Positions 1,112 to 23,844 of a stretch of 50,562 nt of DNA are shown in pieces. The notes beneath the pieces are model-generated. The model saw only the letters and a program-made list of their open reading frames with translations, was not told the origin of the DNA and searched no databases. Made by a program: the position numbers and the translations under genes. Within the stretch, counting starts at the first letter, position 1. Every line of letters starts with the position of its first letter. The stretch is taken from the NCBI GenBank assembly GCA_030753015.1, contig JASMDC010000025.1, positions 1 to 50,562 on the forward strand, written 5' to 3'. Source of the stretch: Candidatus Undinarchaeales archaeon. Lineage in GTDB: Archaea; SpSt-1190; JASMDC01.

Positions 1112-1662
1112 CCGAACAGTACCTCGTAAACGTACTTGTTCTTCTCCATGATCTCTTCCTTGGAGAGACCCTCCAGCTCGTGGGGGAACACGACCCAGTC
1201 CTCCGTGGTACGAAGATGGTAGTCGGGCTTGAAGTCCACGAGGGTCTTGGTAGGCTTGTAGTAGATGACCGCCACCCTGATATTGGGGGTGTTGCGTCGG
1301 GCGAGCTTCTTGATTTCCTTGATGAGGGCGTCGACGGTGTGGCCTGTGTCGAACACGTCGTCCACGATGAGCATATTCTCGTCAGCATCGCACCGATCTA
1401 TGACGTGGCCGAGACCCTTGATCTCGATGTTCTCGCTCTGCTCCTCGATCCCCGTGTAGGACTGGGTTTTGATGGACGTGTGGTAGGGATCGAGCTTTTT
1501 CATACGGAAGAACTCGTGGATGGCGATTCCGGGTGGCGTACCTCCACGCCATAGTCCCAGGAGGAAGTCTGGGTGGAACCCGTCCTCGTAGATCTTTCGC
1601 GCTAGGCGGAAGGAGTCGTCCAGGAGCTGGTTGGCGGACACATAGACCTTGTTGACGGCCAT
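1108..1662 (-). CDS. hpt: Purine phosphoribosyltransferase (hypoxanthine/xanthine-guanine type)
   Basis: The 184-residue protein is a type I phosphoribosyltransferase that would salvage a purine base with PRPP to give the nucleoside monophosphate in the cytosol. The PRPP-binding signature MLIVDDVFDTGHT lies near residues 97-109, with an early LGLWRGGTPPG loop (residues 36-46) and a C-terminal WVVFPHE segment typical of xanthine/hypoxanthine-guanine enzymes. The ATG start lies a short distance from the divergent membrane-protein gene. The stop overlaps that of the agmatinase-family gene by four bases. Base specificity is inferred only at family level; an adenine or orotate enzyme is less likely from the C-terminal motif. 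Confidence 0.83.
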   Translation of the reverse strand: MAVNKVYVSANQLLDDSFRLARKIYEDGFHPDFLLGLWRGGTPPGIAIHEFFRMKKLDPYHTSIKTQSYTGIEEQSENIEIKGLGHVIDRCDADENMLIVDDVFDTGHTVDALIKEIKKLARRNTPNIRVAVIYYKPTKTLVDFKPDYHLRTTEDWVVFPHELEGLSKEEIMEKNKYVYEVLFG

Positions 1663-1728
1663 GCACCTACGAAAGGGTCAAGTTTTTTGAACCTGAGCCT
1701 CGGCGCCAAAAGACTCTTAAAACGCAAC

Positions 1729-3396
1729 ATGCCTCCTTACGCCATGACGCTGGCGGAGGTAGCCGATCAGCGGCGACATGTGGCCCTTGAGCTCTGTCTC
1801 ATCGCATGGTGCGTCATCCCTCTCCTCCTTCACAACATCGCGGGACCCGTTATCCCGCAAGACTCCGTGCCCTTCACGCTCGTCCGCGCCGTGAACGCGA
1901 TCCTTGTCCTCGTGGCCCTTTGGGCTTCACCGGTGCTCTTCCTGGCGACCTCAGCGCCACGTCGTGTTATGAGGTTCCTCCGTGAGGAGCGTACCACCGC
2001 TCTCGCCCTCGCACTCCTGGTGGTCGGTGGGCTGTGGCTGAGGTTGAGCGTAGTACGGACTGCGCCCCTGGACCATCCTGCTGCAGCGGAGATCATGCGG
2101 CATGGGCGGGGGTTCGATCTTCTCGGGACGAACGTCCCTGATGCCGTGTACGGTCGCGCGCTCTGGCATCGCCTTCACTTCGTGCTCCTCGGGGCGTCGG
2201 TCCCCGTGCTCCTGTGCCTTAACGCGGTCTCGGGCGCACTCCTCACACTCGTCGCCTACTCACTCTGTCGGTTCCTTTTGGGCGGCCCCCATGCCCCCAT
2301 GGCTGGTGCGACCCTGTTCACCCTGGCCCCCACCTATCTCCTGGCGAGCACGACCGAGGCGTTCACAGCTCCTCTCCTCCTGGTCTCCATCACGGCCCTT
2401 GTCTTCTTCCTTCGCCGCGATCGTAGGCCGAGAACCCTGGCACTGTCCCTCGCGCTCCTCCTCCTCGCCGTCGAGGTGCGTCCCGACCATATCGCTATGG
2501 TACCCGCGTTCTTTATCGCCTTCCTCGTGTACTGGCAGGGTGGCACCGGGCGTACCGTGCCGATTCTCATTGTGGCGTTCCTCCTTGCCACCCTCCCCCA
2601 TCTCGTGCTGGTGGCATACCAGGAGGACGTCCTCGACCGGGGTGCGACCGGTTCCGCGATCGGCCGGCTGGCCGCCATGGTCCGGAGCCATGTCCCATCC
2701 TATATCCTCCTGCTAGCGCTCGCTGGGGCCGTGGACCTCTCCGACCGACGGCCCAAGGCGCTGATCCTGCTCGGCGGTTGGGCCCTGGCGTTCGCACTTG
2801 CCTACATGTTCCTCTTCACCACCGTTCTCGAAAGGGAACCATTGGGCACGCTCCCTGTCCTTTTGCTCCCCCTCATGGTCCTTGCGGCCCAGGGCATCGC
2901 TGTGCTCTTCTCCTGGTCCATACGGTTCCACCCGCGAGCACCGGGCGTCATGGCGTTCGCCGTAATACTCGTGCTCTCCTGGGAGCTCGTGAAGACGGGG
3001 CGCGCCTTCCACGAGCAACGTGTCGGTGACCCTCAGTACATCGAGTACCGTGCTCTGTTGCAACGGGGAACTGTGGACCCACGCTGCAGCGTCATCGTCA
3101 ACGGCCCGCACGTGCTCGCACCCTACATGCTCTCGTTCCGGGGCGAGCCGCGGGAGGTGGCGGACAGGGGAGAGCTCATCTGGGCGCTGAACGACCTCGT
3201 ACCCAGCGGTTGCTGGTACTACTACAACGGTCTCCCGCCGGACGATGACCTGCGGAGCGATATGGAGCAGACCTACGACCTCAAGAACATACGGAAGCTC
3301 CTGGGTGTGCACGGGTTCACTGAGGTGCCCGGGACCGATGAGCCGGCCCTGGGCGATGACGTGTTCCTCTACAAGCGCGAGGCCCTGCCGGCGTGA
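1729..3396 (+). CDS. Polytopic membrane protein, GT-C glycosyltransferase-like
   Basis: The roughly 555-residue product has about ten hydrophobic segments separated by short Arg-rich loops and a hydrophilic C-terminal domain of about 150 residues. This layout resembles GT-C (dolichyl-phosphate-sugar dependent) transferases. A first-loop segment containing APLDHPAAAE sits where such enzymes carry an acidic catalytic motif, but the match is weak and function is inferred from topology only. A TTG further upstream (1687) could start the frame. A TATA-like CTTAAAA at 1716-1722 places transcription near the in-frame ATGs at 1729 and 1744, so one of these is favoured; 1744 would be close to leaderless. 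The C-terminal region contains WYYYNG and PDDD segments of unknown role. Confidence 0.6.
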   Translation: MPPYAMTLAEVADQRRHVALELCLIAWCVIPLLLHNIAGPVIPQDSVPFTLVRAVNAILVLVALWASPVLFLATSAPRRVMRFLREERTTALALALLVVGGLWLRLSVVRTAPLDHPAAAEIMRHGRGFDLLGTNVPDAVYGRALWHRLHFVLLGASVPVLLCLNAVSGALLTLVAYSLCRFLLGGPHAPMAGATLFTLAPTYLLASTTEAFTAPLLLVSITALVFFLRRDRRPRTLALSLALLLLAVEVRPDHIAMVPAFFIAFLVYWQGGTGRTVPILIVAFLLATLPHLVLVAYQEDVLDRGATGSAIGRLAAMVRSHVPSYILLLALAGAVDLSDRRPKALILLGGWALAFALAYMFLFTTVLEREPLGTLPVLLLPLMVLAAQGIAVLFSWSIRFHPRAPGVMAFAVILVLSWELVKTGRAFHEQRVGDPQYIEYRALLQRGTVDPRCSVIVNGPHVLAPYMLSFRGEPREVADRGELIWALNDLVPSGCWYYYNGLPPDDDLRSDMEQTYDLKNIRKLLGVHGFTEVPGTDEPALGDDVFLYKREALPA

Positions 3397-3418
3397 CCGC
3401 GCTGGGACAAGGCATTTA

Positions 3419-3616
3419 ATGGTTTCGGGCTATCCCATCCATGTGGACATCAATATTCACGAGAAGATCCCCTGCGATTGCGGACGAGGGTACATGCTCC
3501 CCGTGCGCATCTATGAAGAGGAGAAGACCAAACCTAAGGAGCACATAATCGACATCGTCTGGCAGTGCATGGCCTGCCTGAAGAAGGTGTCGCTCATGCC
3601 CAGCCTCAGGATGTAG
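3419..3616 (+). CDS. Small zinc-ribbon-like protein, 65 residues
   Basis: This 65-residue protein starts at an ATG 23 bases after the membrane-protein gene and ends 13 bases before the phosphodiesterase gene. It has a CDCG motif near residue 19 and CMAC near residue 51, separated by a polar linker, a pattern consistent with one zinc-binding ribbon, although the first knuckle is C-x-C rather than C-x-x-C. No family was recognised. Its spacing suggests cotranscription with the phosphodiesterase. Confidence 0.6.
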   Translation: MVSGYPIHVDINIHEKIPCDCGRGYMLPVRIYEEEKTKPKEHIIDIVWQCMACLKKVSLMPSLRM

Positions 3617-3628
3617 GAGACCATCACC

Positions 3629-4168
3629 ATGATCCTCGGCGTTCTCGGCGATACGCACGTCCCCGGCAGGGTCCGCTCCATCCCTCATCTCGTGTTCGAG
3701 ACATTCAGGGAGCGCGGTGTCGAGCTCATCCTCTGTTCAGGCGATATCAATACGCTCTCCACGCTCAAGGAGCTGCGGAAACTGACCCCTTTGTACGCCG
3801 TCCGCGGCGAGATCGACTTCCTCGACCTCCCCGAGAACAAGATCATCGGGGTGGGCAGTATCAAGGTCGGAATGACCCATGGCCATGAGGCCCTGGATGA
3901 AATGGGCCGGGAGCCTGCAGTCGTGACCGCACGGGAGATGGGAGTCGATGTCCTTGTTCTTGGCCACACGCACGAGCTCAGGCAGGAAGTGCTCAATGGG
4001 CTGCTCGTGATCAATCCGGGTAGCGCGACCGGTGCGTGGGCCGCCGCGGGAGTGGTCCGGGAACCGTCCTTCATGGTCCTCGATATATCGGACCGGTCCG
4101 TCACCGTCGAGACGTATCGGATCGGTGAGGAAGGGCTCGAGAAAGGGACGGAAGGGCACGACCTATAG
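3629..4168 (+). CDS. YfcE/MJ0936-type metallophosphoesterase
   Basis: The 179-residue protein is a calcineurin-like phosphodiesterase of the YfcE/MJ0936 group. Metal-ligand motifs appear in the family order: GDTHVP near residue 7, CSGDIN near 36, VRGEID near 58 (usually V-x-G-N-x-D), THGHE near 86, and LGHTHE near 110, followed by NPGSAT. Family members hydrolyse phosphodiesters such as 2',3'-cAMP or bis-p-nitrophenyl phosphate in vitro; the physiological substrate is generally unknown. It is closely spaced after the small zinc protein and precedes the L21e promoter. Confidence 0.83.
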   Translation: MILGVLGDTHVPGRVRSIPHLVFETFRERGVELILCSGDINTLSTLKELRKLTPLYAVRGEIDFLDLPENKIIGVGSIKVGMTHGHEALDEMGREPAVVTAREMGVDVLVLGHTHELRQEVLNGLLVINPGSATGAWAAAGVVREPSFMVLDISDRSVTVETYRIGEEGLEKGTEGHDL

Positions 4169-19863: not shown

Positions 19864-20601
19864 TCAGTATAGCCGCTCTCCCACCTCGGCCTCCAGCACC
19901 TTGAGCACCTTGCGACGGACCACCTCGCGCTCCCCGTCCTTGCCCGTAAGATCATGCACGTCACGCTCCCTGAGCGGGCGGCTGGACACAACCATCACCC
20001 TGCTTGCCAGCCGGAGGGCTACCTCGACATCATGAGTGACAAGGACGACCGTCGTGCCCGTCTCCTTCCAGAGCCGCATCAGGGTGTTCTGGAGGATCCT
20101 GGATGTCTGGGCATCCAGGGAGGAGAAAGGCTCGTCCATGAGGAGCATGTCGGGCTCGGCCACCATGGCACGGGCCAGGGCGACACGTCGCTCCATCCCG
20201 CCGGACAGGGTACGTGGATAGTTGTCCTGGAATCCGTCCAGACCGCACGTGCGGACGGCCTCCGCCACCCGTTCAGGATCGACGTCCCCGCGGGCCTCCA
20301 TGCCGAAGGAGACGTTCTCCTCGACGGTGGCCCAGGGGAACACCGTGCCCTCCTGGAAGATGAGCACACGGTCCGGTCCGGATCCGGTAACAGGCTCGCC
20401 CCGCACCTTCACGCTCCCCGCCGTGGGTGTCTCGAGCCCCGCGAGGAGGCGAAGCAGCGTGGTCTTCCCGCACCCGCTGGGTCCAACGATGGCCATGAGC
20501 TCGCCCTGGCGGACCGTCAGGTCGAGACCATCGATGACATCTAGATCGCCGAAGGACTTGGTGAGGCCCTTGACTGCTAGCACTGGTGGGTCTACCGCCA
20601 C
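19864..20601 (-). CDS. ABC transporter ATP-binding protein, NitT/TauT type
   Basis: The 245-residue ATPase powers the importer encoded with the next two genes. Walker A GPSGCGKTT (near residue 40), Q-loop IFQEGTVFPW, signature LSGGMERR (near 134), Walker B MLLMDEPFSSLD and the switch histidine VLVTHD are present. The overall type (SsuB/TauB/NrtC-like) is clear. The GTG start lies inside the last ten bases of the permease gene; the long upstream extension of the frame is antisense-like, Arg/Gly-rich sequence and is rejected. The substrate is unknown; relatives import nitrate, sulfonates, taurine or pyrimidine precursors. Confidence 0.9.
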   Translation of the reverse strand: MAVDPPVLAVKGLTKSFGDLDVIDGLDLTVRQGELMAIVGPSGCGKTTLLRLLAGLETPTAGSVKVRGEPVTGSGPDRVLIFQEGTVFPWATVEENVSFGMEARGDVDPERVAEAVRTCGLDGFQDNYPRTLSGGMERRVALARAMVAEPDMLLMDEPFSSLDAQTSRILQNTLMRLWKETGTTVVLVTHDVEVALRLASRVMVVSSRPLRERDVHDLTGKDGEREVVRRKVLKVLEAEVGERLY

Positions 20602-21344
20602 GGTACGAACCTCCCCTCGAGACCTCGCATGCCCCGGTTCATCAGATAGCCGAGGACACCGATGCTCACCATCCCGACCATGATACGATCGGCACGGGCC
20701 AGGTCCTGGGCCACGACCATCATGTAGCCGAGGCCGTAACCGGTCCGTACGCCCTGGAGCTCCGCGGCGACCAGACACATCCACGCCACACCCGCACCCA
20801 CGCGCAGTCCGGTCAGCACGTGCGGGAGCGTCGCGGGGACCACCACACGCCGCCACGTCGTCGAGTCATCGGCCCCGAACACCCGTGAGACCTCAAGATA
20901 GCGGGGCTCGATGGCACGCACACCCTCGTACGTGTTCAGGAGGATAGGGAACACGCATCCAAGGAAGATGATGAACGCCTGGTCGGCGAGCCCGATGCCC
21001 AGCCACAGGATGGCCAGAGGGATCCATGCGAGGGGCGGGACGGGTCGTACGAGCTCGACAACCGGCTCTAGGATGTCCCGTGCCCAGGGTCGCGTCCCCA
21101 TGAGATAGCCCAGCAGGATGCCCACGAGCGAGCCCGCGCCGAGTCCGACCAGCACGCGTCCCAGTGAAGCTGCAGCGTGACGGACCAGATCGCCGGAGCG
21201 GAGGAGGCGAACACCCTCCACGGCGACGGTCAGCGGTCCGGGGAAGAGGGCCGCGAAGGTACCACCTCGTCCAGCTGCTGCCCATGCAGCGAGCTGCCAG
21301 AGGGCAAGGAAGATGACGATCCCAGCACCACGGCGGAGCCTCAG
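20592..21344 (-). CDS. ABC transporter permease, NitT/TauT type, apparent CTG start
   Basis: The permease has the BPD-type fold with TM segments and the coupling loop EGVRAIEPRYLEVSRVFGAD. From the first ordinary start codon (GTG, 21221) it would be 209 residues and lack the first membrane helix. The same frame extends upstream without stops and encodes a typical first helix (GIVIFLALWQLAAWAA) and FPGPLTVA. No ATG, GTG or TTG occurs in that stretch, but a CTG at 21344-21342 overlaps the binding-protein stop (CTGA) and is preceded by GGAGG at seven bases. That gives 250 residues, normal for the family. I therefore favour CTG initiation. Confidence 0.78.
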   Translation of the reverse strand: MRLRRGAGIVIFLALWQLAAWAAAGRGGTFAALFPGPLTVAVEGVRLLRSGDLVRHAAASLGRVLVGLGAGSLVGILLGYLMGTRPWARDILEPVVELVRPVPPLAWIPLAILWLGIGLADQAFIIFLGCVFPILLNTYEGVRAIEPRYLEVSRVFGADDSTTWRRVVVPATLPHVLTGLRVGAGVAWMCLVAAELQGVRTGYGLGYMMVVAQDLARADRIMVGMVSIGVLGYLMNRGMRGLEGRFVPWR

Positions 21345-22336
21345 GACTCTCCCTCCACGGCAACGCCGGCGGCTTCGAGCGCGCGGAGCGCTAGCACGTG
21401 CTGGACGGTGCCGAATCCGGGGACAGCGATGTCACGCCCGGCCAGGTCGGTCACGTCCGTGATGGGCCCGTCGGTGCGCACGGCGATGCAGGAACCCTCT
21501 TCGTTCACCCCGGCGAGCACGACAACAGGCACCTGCGCGACGGTTCCCTTGAGCAGGAGGGGTGCGGCCCCCAGGTACCCCGCGTCGATATCGGCGGCCG
21601 CGAACCCGTCCATCTCCTTGACCCCGTTCTCGAACACAACCTCCTCGACCGTGATCCCTTCATCAGCGAAGTACCCCTTCTCCTTGGCGACGAGGAAGGC
21701 GGCCTGGTGGATGTCTCCCTCCAACCATCCCACACGCAGTGTGATCGGGCCGGTCGGAGCATCTACATCCTGCTGCTTGGGCACTAGCCTGGACACAGCG
21801 GTCGCGGGATCGGTCTCGGAAGGTACAAGGCCAGCATCGCGGATGGCCTGCATGTACGTGGTCATCCCCGTCCGGTCAGGCTCGGTACGGAAGGCGATGT
21901 TGTCCATGGCGGCTTGAACTGCCTCCCGGTCCATGCCGGTGGACGCAGCGAAGATATCGACGGCCTCGTCCGGATGTTCGTTCATGTAGGCCGTGGCCCG
22001 CTCGTGGATCCGTCGCAGGGCCGATGCCAGCCCCGGCCGGCTCTCGAGAAGCTCCTGCCGGGCCGCGAGGACGCAGCAGGGATGGGACGGCCAGATGTCC
22101 TTTGAAGCGGCGAGCATCCGTGCCGTTCCGGACAGCACGGCCCGTGCACAGTGGGGCTCCCAGGCGACGAAGGCCGCAACATCACCACGGGCCAGGGCCG
22201 CCTCCATGAGGGCTGGGCGCAGGCGCACGAAGCGAGCGGACGTACCTGCACTGGGCGGAGCGAGCACCGCCGCCAGGGCGAGCAGGCACACGACGGCAGC
22301 TATGAGGACCGGGAGAGGTCGTATCGACGATTCCAT
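21341..22336 (-). CDS. Substrate-binding protein, NitT/TauT type, circularly permuted
   Basis: The 331-residue protein has an N-terminal membrane/signal segment (LIAAVVCLLALAAVLA). It then shows features normally found in the second half of the family: ALMEAALARGDVAAFVAWEP near residue 43, and DIWPSHPCCVLAA near 79. The canonical first half follows only afterwards: ITLRVGWLEGDIHQAAFLVA near 195, DIDAGYLGAAPLLLKG near 249, and IAVPGFGTVQHVLALRALEA near 303, at the very C-terminus. The order of the two lobes is thus swapped. I use the ATG eight codons after the first possible TTG because a weak TATA-like patch lies about 30 bases upstream. Its stop overlaps the permease CTG. Confidence 0.82.
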   Translation of the reverse strand: MESSIRPLPVLIAAVVCLLALAAVLAPPSAGTSARFVRLRPALMEAALARGDVAAFVAWEPHCARAVLSGTARMLAASKDIWPSHPCCVLAARQELLESRPGLASALRRIHERATAYMNEHPDEAVDIFAASTGMDREAVQAAMDNIAFRTEPDRTGMTTYMQAIRDAGLVPSETDPATAVSRLVPKQQDVDAPTGPITLRVGWLEGDIHQAAFLVAKEKGYFADEGITVEEVVFENGVKEMDGFAAADIDAGYLGAAPLLLKGTVAQVPVVVLAGVNEEGSCIAVRTDGPITDVTDLAGRDIAVPGFGTVQHVLALRALEAAGVAVEGES

Positions 22337-22625: not shown

Positions 22626-22985
22626 CTAGAGCACGCACTTGGCACAGTTCGCCTGAGAGCAGGCGACGTTGTCGCCCCTCCACCGCAGAGTCCACTGCTT
22701 GAGAGCCTGGATGACCGAGATGAAGTCCTCGCCCGACCCGGTCAGCTTGTACTCGCTCTTGACGGGGAAAGAGGAAGCATCCACCTGATTCATGACGAGC
22801 CCTTCGTGCTCCAGCTCCTTCAGACGGGCTGAGAGCATCTTGGGAGTGATCTCGTCCATAGACTTCTTTATCTTCGAGAAGCGCTTCCATCCACCGTTCC
22901 CCCTATAGAGCTCGAGGAGGATGAGCAGTGTCCATCGCTTTCCGAAGAGATGGGTGCTCTGGTAGACCGTGCACTCCTTATCCAT
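22626..22985 (-). CDS. HxlR-family winged-helix regulator
   Basis: The 119-residue protein is an HxlR-type transcription factor. The hallmark sequence GKRWTLLILLELY near residue 15 is followed by RFSKIKKSMDEITPKMLSARLKELEHEGLV (recognition helix region) and YKLTGSGEDF. The C-terminus has three cysteines (ACSQANCAKC) and the N-terminus has C5, which could bind metal or sense redox state. It is divergent from a ferredoxin-type gene with several palindromes in the shared 88-base gap, so autoregulation and control of that gene are likely. Confidence 0.88.
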   Translation of the reverse strand: MDKECTVYQSTHLFGKRWTLLILLELYRGNGGWKRFSKIKKSMDEITPKMLSARLKELEHEGLVMNQVDASSFPVKSEYKLTGSGEDFISVIQALKQWTLRWRGDNVACSQANCAKCVL

Positions 22986-23073: not shown

Positions 23074-23844
23074 ATGGTCTTACGCGAAATAGTCCAGATA
23101 GATGAGAACAAGTGCACGGGCTGCGGTCTGTGTATCCCGAACTGCCACGAGGGAGCGCTCCAGATCGTCGGAGGAAAGGCACGCCTTGTGAAGGATGTCT
23201 ACTGTGACGGCCTTGGCAACTGCCTCGGCCATTGCCCCGAGGACGCGATCACTATCGTGAAGAAGGACGTGAACGCCTTCGATTTCGAGGCAACGAACGA
23301 GAACCTGCGGGAGCAGGGGATGGAGGAGCTCACCGAGAACCCGCTCGAGAAAGTGGACGCCCCCACGCCCAAGGCGCCGCCGCCCATGGCCTGCGGGTGC
23401 CCCGGCACCATGGTAAGGGACCTGCGGCAGGAGACCGCGCCCGTTGCCGCGGCAGCACCTCAGGAGAGCCAGCTGCGACAGTGGCCCATACAGCTCCATC
23501 TGCTCCCACCGCAAGCGCCCTTCTTCAAGGGGGCCGACCTCATCGTGATGGCGGACTGCGTGGGAGTGTCGTATCCCGACCTCCACCAGAATCTTATCAA
23601 GGGGAAGGCGATAACCATCGCCTGCCCAAAGCTCGATGACACGTCGCCGTACGTCGACAAGCTGCAGGCCATCATCGAGCACAACGGTCTCTCGTCGCTC
23701 ACTGTCGCGACCATGGAGGTGCCCTGTTGCCACGGCCTCTACATCATGGTCAAGCAGGCGCTTGAGGCGTCAGGCGTTGACCTCAGGCTCAAGCACATGG
23801 TCATAGGGATCAATGGATCGGTCCTGCGAGAACAAGTGGAGTAG
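23074..23844 (+). CDS. 4Fe-4S ferredoxin-domain protein
   Basis: The 256-residue protein begins with a two-cluster ferredoxin domain: CTGCGLCIPNC near residue 15 and CDGLGNCLGHCPED near 44. In the second motif the spacing departs from C-x2-C-x2-C. A Pro/Ala-rich linker with an ACGCPG motif follows. The C-terminal half (ADLIVMADCVGVSYPD, ITIACPKLDD, VPCCHGLYIM) contains four more cysteines and resembles the conserved domain of stand-alone iron-sulfur proteins often paired with regulators. The ATG is chosen over two earlier in-frame codons because GGTGATC lies six bases upstream. Electron-transfer partner and role are unknown; expression is probably HxlR-controlled. Confidence 0.82.
   Translation: MVLREIVQIDENKCTGCGLCIPNCHEGALQIVGGKARLVKDVYCDGLGNCLGHCPEDAITIVKKDVNAFDFEATNENLREQGMEELTENPLEKVDAPTPKAPPPMACGCPGTMVRDLRQETAPVAAAAPQESQLRQWPIQLHLLPPQAPFFKGADLIVMADCVGVSYPDLHQNLIKGKAITIACPKLDDTSPYVDKLQAIIEHNGLSSLTVATMEVPCCHGLYIMVKQALEASGVDLRLKHMVIGINGSVLREQVE

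Follow-up and report, generated by a model that had tools for sequence, protein, structure and literature searches.

Substrate-binding proteins (SBPs) of the SsuA/TauA (NMT1) type are class II proteins represented by the profiles TIGR01728, PF09084, and PF13379. Natural permutation of binding proteins is already known, both in the type I protein TpMglB-2 and, at the structural level, in the OpuAC/ProX group. Tp0684/TpMglB-2 of Treponema pallidum and its relatives is a naturally circularly permuted, anchored ABC SBP that forms a widespread clade, for which the designation 'type Ic / cluster Bc' has been proposed; the accessible portion of that report describes a single permuted topology and makes no mention of a series of rotations or of tandem dimers (PMC4990184). 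The OpuAC/ProX glycine-betaine-binding proteins, the molybdate-binding proteins, and CysB constitute a circular-permutation family (CPSARST; PMC2395249). Permutation by tandem duplication followed by trimming is described for DNA methyltransferases and for saposins/swaposins, with documented intermediates among the methyltransferases, and the duplication model predicts that tandem intermediates are functional (PMC3320104). The literature searched, which leaves out most subscription papers, contained no description of naturally permuted NMT1/SsuA proteins and none of serial rotations in which intermediates survive and a reversal occurs.

The 50,562-nucleotide stretch of archaeal DNA analysed here (the window) codes for a 331-residue SBP (coordinates 21341–22336, minus strand) that resembles the SsuA/TauA proteins in family, motifs, and an operon with a TauC/SaoP-like permease and a TauB-like ATPase, but has a segment order rotated by half, with new termini within domain II. 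It shares with TpMglB-2 the natural permutation of an anchored ABC binding protein, whereas TpMglB-2 has a type I sugar-binding fold and belongs to an unrelated family (PMC4990184). The OpuAC/ProX group likewise contains class II-like folds in permuted orders, but these are remote structural relatives with less than 24% identity (PMC2395249), whereas the SsuA/NMT1 rotations lie within one sequence family in which rotated neighbours are up to 72% identical. The methyltransferases and saposins differ in fold and function, and the SsuA/NMT1 family adds four rotations, two types of dimer, and an apparent return to the canonical order. We regard it as highly probable that the window protein is a functional extracytoplasmic SBP of an SsuA/TauA (NMT1)-type importer and a circular permutant derived by duplication, a process recurrent in this family; the transport function, the substrate, the shift of the tether, and the duplication step of the window gene itself are the inferred parts of this reading.

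The rotated binding protein and its operon

The SBP open reading frame is intact, running from an ATG at 22336 to a TGA at 21343–21341. If the canonical family order is written as four consecutive quarters, A1-A2-B1-B2, the window protein has the order B1-B2-A1-A2 (designated P1). It begins with a hydrophobic signal/anchor segment of approximate extent (residues 1–32, coordinates 22241–22336) with a helix at residues 8–24, assigned from the sequence and from DSSP of the model, in which no clear lipobox is discernible. Segment B1, the canonical third quarter, contains AFVAWEP (residues ~35–75; 22112–22234) and was located with segment HMMs and by phmmer comparison with SsuA 2x26. B2, the last quarter, carries WPSHPCCV (residues ~79–173; 21818–22102). 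A linker recognised by alignment (residues ~174–196; 21749–21817), shorter than in the Archaeoglobi counterparts, connects what would be the C-terminal end of a canonical protein to its N-terminal start. It is followed by A1, the first quarter, with GDIHQ and GYLGAAP (residues ~197–267; 21536–21748), and A2, the second quarter, with VNEEGS and PGFGTVQH (residues ~268–331; 21344–21535); B2, A1, and A2 are placed by profiles, the SsuA 2x26 comparison, and segment HMMs. All of these features are on the minus strand, and the chain terminates directly after the A2 helix. The four motifs named in the initial annotation (GYLGAAP, TVQHVL, AFVAWEP, and WPSHPCCV) are each present.

That annotation had proposed, from the letters alone, a reversed lobe order behind a single signal segment, and profile comparisons together with SsuA 2x26 bear this out. 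TIGR01728 scores the whole protein at 167.5 bits (curated cut-off 163.5) and matches it in two stretches, the better of which aligns protein residues 29–181 with profile positions 127–284 of 290. The best stretch of PF13379 (NMT1_2) aligns residues 33–124 with profile positions 153–243, and that of PF09084 (NMT1) aligns residues 212–325 with positions 5–117. Compared with Escherichia coli SsuA (2x26), residues 197–325 correspond to chain positions 2–129 and residues 38–147 to positions 138–245; the canonical start thus lies in the C-terminal half and the later part is N-terminal, as the suggested alignment with swapped halves should give. The collinear N-to-C order of the TIGR01728 profile is not met, and judged by sequence the window protein is a permuted relative of that family and not a standard member. 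With two matches that are each significant, do not overlap, and lie in swapped order, a chance result is ruled out, and many genomes conserve this order over the full length of the protein. The glycine-betaine-binding (OpuAC-type) profile PF04069 gives only a partial match of 25.3 bits, far below the 104.1 bits of NMT1_2, and is not the best family. Membership in a TpMglB-2-like type I (cluster B) sugar-binding group was also considered and rejected, as the Pfam and NCBIfam matches comprise NMT1/SsuA and other class II families with no type I family among them.

Profile searches recover the SBP–permease–ATPase operon that marks SsuA/NMT1-type systems. The permease gene (BPD_transp_1; SaoP/TauC-like; 20592–21344, minus strand) has an inferred start codon. 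Its first ATG, GTG, or TTG is only at 21221, and the frame is open upstream to a CTG at 21344–21342 that overlaps the SBP stop codon (CTGA) a few bases past a GGAGG; this CTG is the likely start because the alignment to SaoP extends upstream of 21221. The ATPase gene (TauB/SaoA-like; 19864–20619, minus strand) completes the operon, and its exact start was not determined. Just upstream of the operon are genes for an HxlR-type regulator (22626–22985) and a ferredoxin-domain protein (23074–23841), and local regulation is possible. Scans for Rfam families and tRNA genes gave no matches in the window.

An AlphaFold2 model built with 27 permuted sequences forms one compact fold (pLDDT 91.5, pTM 0.84). 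The protein would be expected to adopt the Venus fly-trap fold with its two lobes and to hand its ligand over to the permease in the same manner as canonical members. Its best structural matches in Foldseek and VIA-align are class II binding proteins (OpuAC, AioX, and similar) with modest TM-scores; OpuAC heads the Foldseek list and is less than 0.5 Z unit from the top in VIA-align. The 50 structural matches listed include neither SsuA nor TauA, which is not evidence against family membership because both aligners are sequential and such an absence is expected for a permutant. A viral structure library contained no match to the model, and sequence searches found no solved structure of any permuted family member. 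A canonical control (L083), modelled from a three-sequence alignment, reached a pLDDT of only 38 and yielded no superposition of permuted and canonical forms.

The joining of gene pieces is an expected route to such a protein, and the gene could in principle be a decayed, non-functional fusion of two neighbouring partial SBP genes, particularly as some units in the family do decay (see L188 below). This is very improbable for the window gene, in which the reading frame is intact, all binding motifs are retained, the model is a confident single body, the operon is intact, and the permuted relatives are conserved across large distances.

The initial annotation had placed the breakpoints at the inter-lobe junction, and this part of it does not hold. 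TauA domain I comprises residues 23–104 and 202–319 and domain II residues 105–201 (PMC6906117); mapped on these limits by alignment, with a mature-numbering offset of 22, the P1 break is near TauA residues 147–153, about halfway along domain II. The new N-terminus enters a strand in the window model, and the A2 helix is near the end of the chain. The start points of the other rotations similarly fall after a helix and before a strand by alignment, with their breaks (P2 and P3, defined below) lying some ten residues ahead of the two hinges; the breakpoints are thus all assigned to helix-to-strand loops, from the model for the window protein and from aligned residues for the others. The old termini would be joined through the linker and the new ones would lie in the helix-to-strand loop in mid domain II, and by inference the N-terminal anchor would shift from domain I to domain II.

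Rotated relatives and tandem dimers

Scanning contigs with the window protein as sole query returned no homologues, and a query built from an alignment was needed. With it, permuted homologues were found in Archaeoglobus, Ferroglobus, Geoglobus, Ca. Mnemosynella, and other archaea, and also in Bacillota (e.g. Thermincola and Syntrophomonas). Identity between the window protein and its nearest relatives is only ~40%; a 37%-identical protein with the same segment order over its full length is present in another archaeal genome. In the Archaeoglobus-like taxonomic order that includes this genome, 20 of 57 genomes carry the P1 form, nearly all of them matching across the full permuted length, and 7 of 10 genomes in the class containing Thermincola encode a permuted protein, with up to three permuted operons per genome in Thermincola (loci L067, L069, and L074). 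The P1 junctions are shared: the proteins end a few residues past the TVQ helix and start at the strand that precedes a P-x-x-M motif. The segment order of the window protein, with matching breakpoints, recurs in Archaeoglobi, in Bacillota, and in the Methanomassiliicoccales-like archaea described below. The proposed circular permutation is accordingly supported by the order of profile matches, by full-length permuted homologues in many independent genomes, and by the confident single-fold model.

The genome that contains the window (G000) is a draft of 117 contigs with an estimated contamination of ~5%, and a rearranged contig that joins gene pieces in the wrong order could give the same appearance. 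For the family such an assembly or binning artefact is refuted, and for the window gene its likelihood is negligible. The recurrence of this order and these junctions in dozens of independent, unrelated genomes excludes an assembly rearrangement, all the more as two genomes among the 20 of the Archaeoglobus-like order are single contigs (2,178,400 and 2,196,266 bp); moreover, one signal segment stands in front of the window protein and the permease begins at its stop codon. The window genome has a single copy of the SBP. At 3.85 Mb, with ~65% GC near the gene, it is large for its archaeal class, whose genomes are small, the nearest same-class relatives compared being 0.6–1.1 Mb.

A weak match, L008, has a different permutation, starting at the ANTEGS strand and ending past GAPP. 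A search of its taxonomic order, which we take to be the Methanomassiliicoccales, matched 132 of 147 genomes. The family was therefore divided into its four segments, one HMM was built for each, and their order was scored per open reading frame in 233 loci plus the window. The SsuA/NMT1 family turned out to contain every possible cyclic arrangement of the four segments: 100 loci are P1 (B1-B2-A1-A2), 76 are P2 (A2-B1-B2-A1), 30 are canonical, and seven are P3 (B2-A1-A2-B1), counts that include some loci fetched twice. Within each rotation class the breakpoints agree to within a few residues.

In-frame tandem dimers are present in five genomes, all outside the window lineage: P2-P2 in four (four distinct dimers, one of them a 757-residue protein of the single-contig genome G518) and P1-P1 in one. 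In the P1-P1 dimer (L188 in genome G580; open reading frame 496–2688) the first unit lacks the W-E-P tryptophan, the HPCC cysteines, and the GSPP motif, and the second unit retains the binding residues. On these residues the first unit is interpreted as the decaying half of a duplicated binding protein. Another P1 protein (L231 in G565; open reading frame 1297–3807, minus strand) is fused to ~440 extra residues that resemble fibronectin-III/PKD-type and repeat modules, and the HPCC and GxxPP motifs of its binding-protein part have changed.

The mechanism that fits best is permutation by duplication, because the tandem intermediates that it predicts exist here in two rotational states. The coding region would first be duplicated in tandem and in frame, after which both ends would be trimmed to leave a shifted unit behind the signal segment. 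Trimming of a P1-P1 dimer would then yield P2, and that of a P2-P2 dimer either P3 or the canonical order; on this reading the process has recurred in the family and produced all four cyclic orders, with one return to canonical. Tandem duplication and trimming had also been suggested for the window gene itself; the dimers in relatives support this well at the level of the family, but segment HMMs run over the window detect a single set of segments with no trace of duplication beside the gene, such traces being expected only after a recent event. Fission into separate half genes and their re-fusion in the other order is a recognised alternative (PMC3320104), but it is an improbable one: no free-standing half genes were noticed other than fragments at contig ends, in a search that was not systematic, and the five genomes with dimers contain the intermediates of the duplication route.

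Repeated rotation and an apparent reversal

Trees of 63 and 119 rows were constructed after all sequences had been put in silico into canonical order. In the 63-row tree the Archaeoglobi and Bacillota P1 proteins form one clade (100/99), and in the Methanomassiliicoccales-like clade (100/99) the canonical proteins are basal, followed by P1, with P2 nested within P1. In the 119-row tree P3 is inside P2 at two separate places. A single clade of all permuted rows is rejected both with the window protein (AU p = 7e-71) and without it (p = 1.3e-4), and therefore P1 arose more than once or reverted; a single P3 clade is also rejected (p = 1.6e-4). The tested groups were defined after the first tree had been viewed, and these p-values are somewhat optimistic. 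One protein, L224, is in canonical order and nested in the P3 group, with 72% identity to the P3 protein L186, and the test rejects a tree in which it joins the remaining canonical rows (p = 1e-42). The L224 gene is complete, and a permease gene comes after it. One lineage thus appears to have rotated back to the canonical order, on the evidence of a single draft genome.

Whether the window permutation is independent of that in the Archaeoglobi or represents the same event is unresolved, its own genus and family being unsampled. Chances are about even that it descends from the same ancestral event as the Archaeoglobi and Bacillota P1 proteins: the breakpoints match within a residue or two, a single clade of the window and Archaeoglobi P1 proteins is not rejected (AU p = 0.161), and the highest column identity of the window protein (46%) is to a P1 protein, L065. 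Against this, the window protein groups with canonical Asgard-like proteins in both trees, at modest support (SH-aLRT 80 in the 119-row tree; 82/82 in the 63-row tree), and a BLAST comparison of its rotated sequence gives canonical proteins as the best matches. A broader reading, in which duplication and trimming have permuted the family again and again, with four rotations, live dimers, more than one origin of the same rotation, and one reversal, and the window protein is an additional independent origin of P1 with its break in the same loop of the fold, is plausible but can be put forward only tentatively.

As a rule, circular permutation is deduced by comparing two distantly related folds, and the evolutionary steps between them are not available. 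In the SsuA/NMT1 proteins the start points, dimer intermediates, end points, and reversal all sit within one alignable family, and because of this the route can be tested directly: duplication and trimming, the preference for helix-to-strand breakpoints, and the effects on folding, anchoring, and transport become accessible with natural proteins. Order-dependent annotation and sequential structure aligners, it should be cautioned, split or miss permuted proteins.

Conserved motifs and gene neighbourhoods

All rotations largely keep the motifs for binding: D-x-H-Q, the G/P turn in GYLGAAP, N-x-E-G-S, P-G..Q, W-E-P, and H-x-C-C. There are no methyl-compound or coenzyme M genes close by in the window itself. 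The substrate is inferred, without binding data, to be an organosulfonate, a methylated small molecule, or some related small organic compound, and its uptake is itself an inference. The neighbours of the relatives point to methyl-compound metabolism or coenzyme M biosynthesis. Genes adjoining the Ferroglobus and Thermincola relatives encode RACo, MtrH-like, and MtaA/CmuA-like (corrinoid methyltransferase) proteins. In Ca. Mnemosynella (L063, 702–3912) the genes ahead of the operon encode cysteate synthase, a fused sulfopyruvate decarboxylase, and a further SsuA-like protein of canonical order, a neighbourhood of coenzyme M biosynthesis. Permuted forms are the usual type in the Methanomassiliicoccales-like archaea and common in the Archaeoglobi, and are therefore part of the normal uptake machinery of these organisms.
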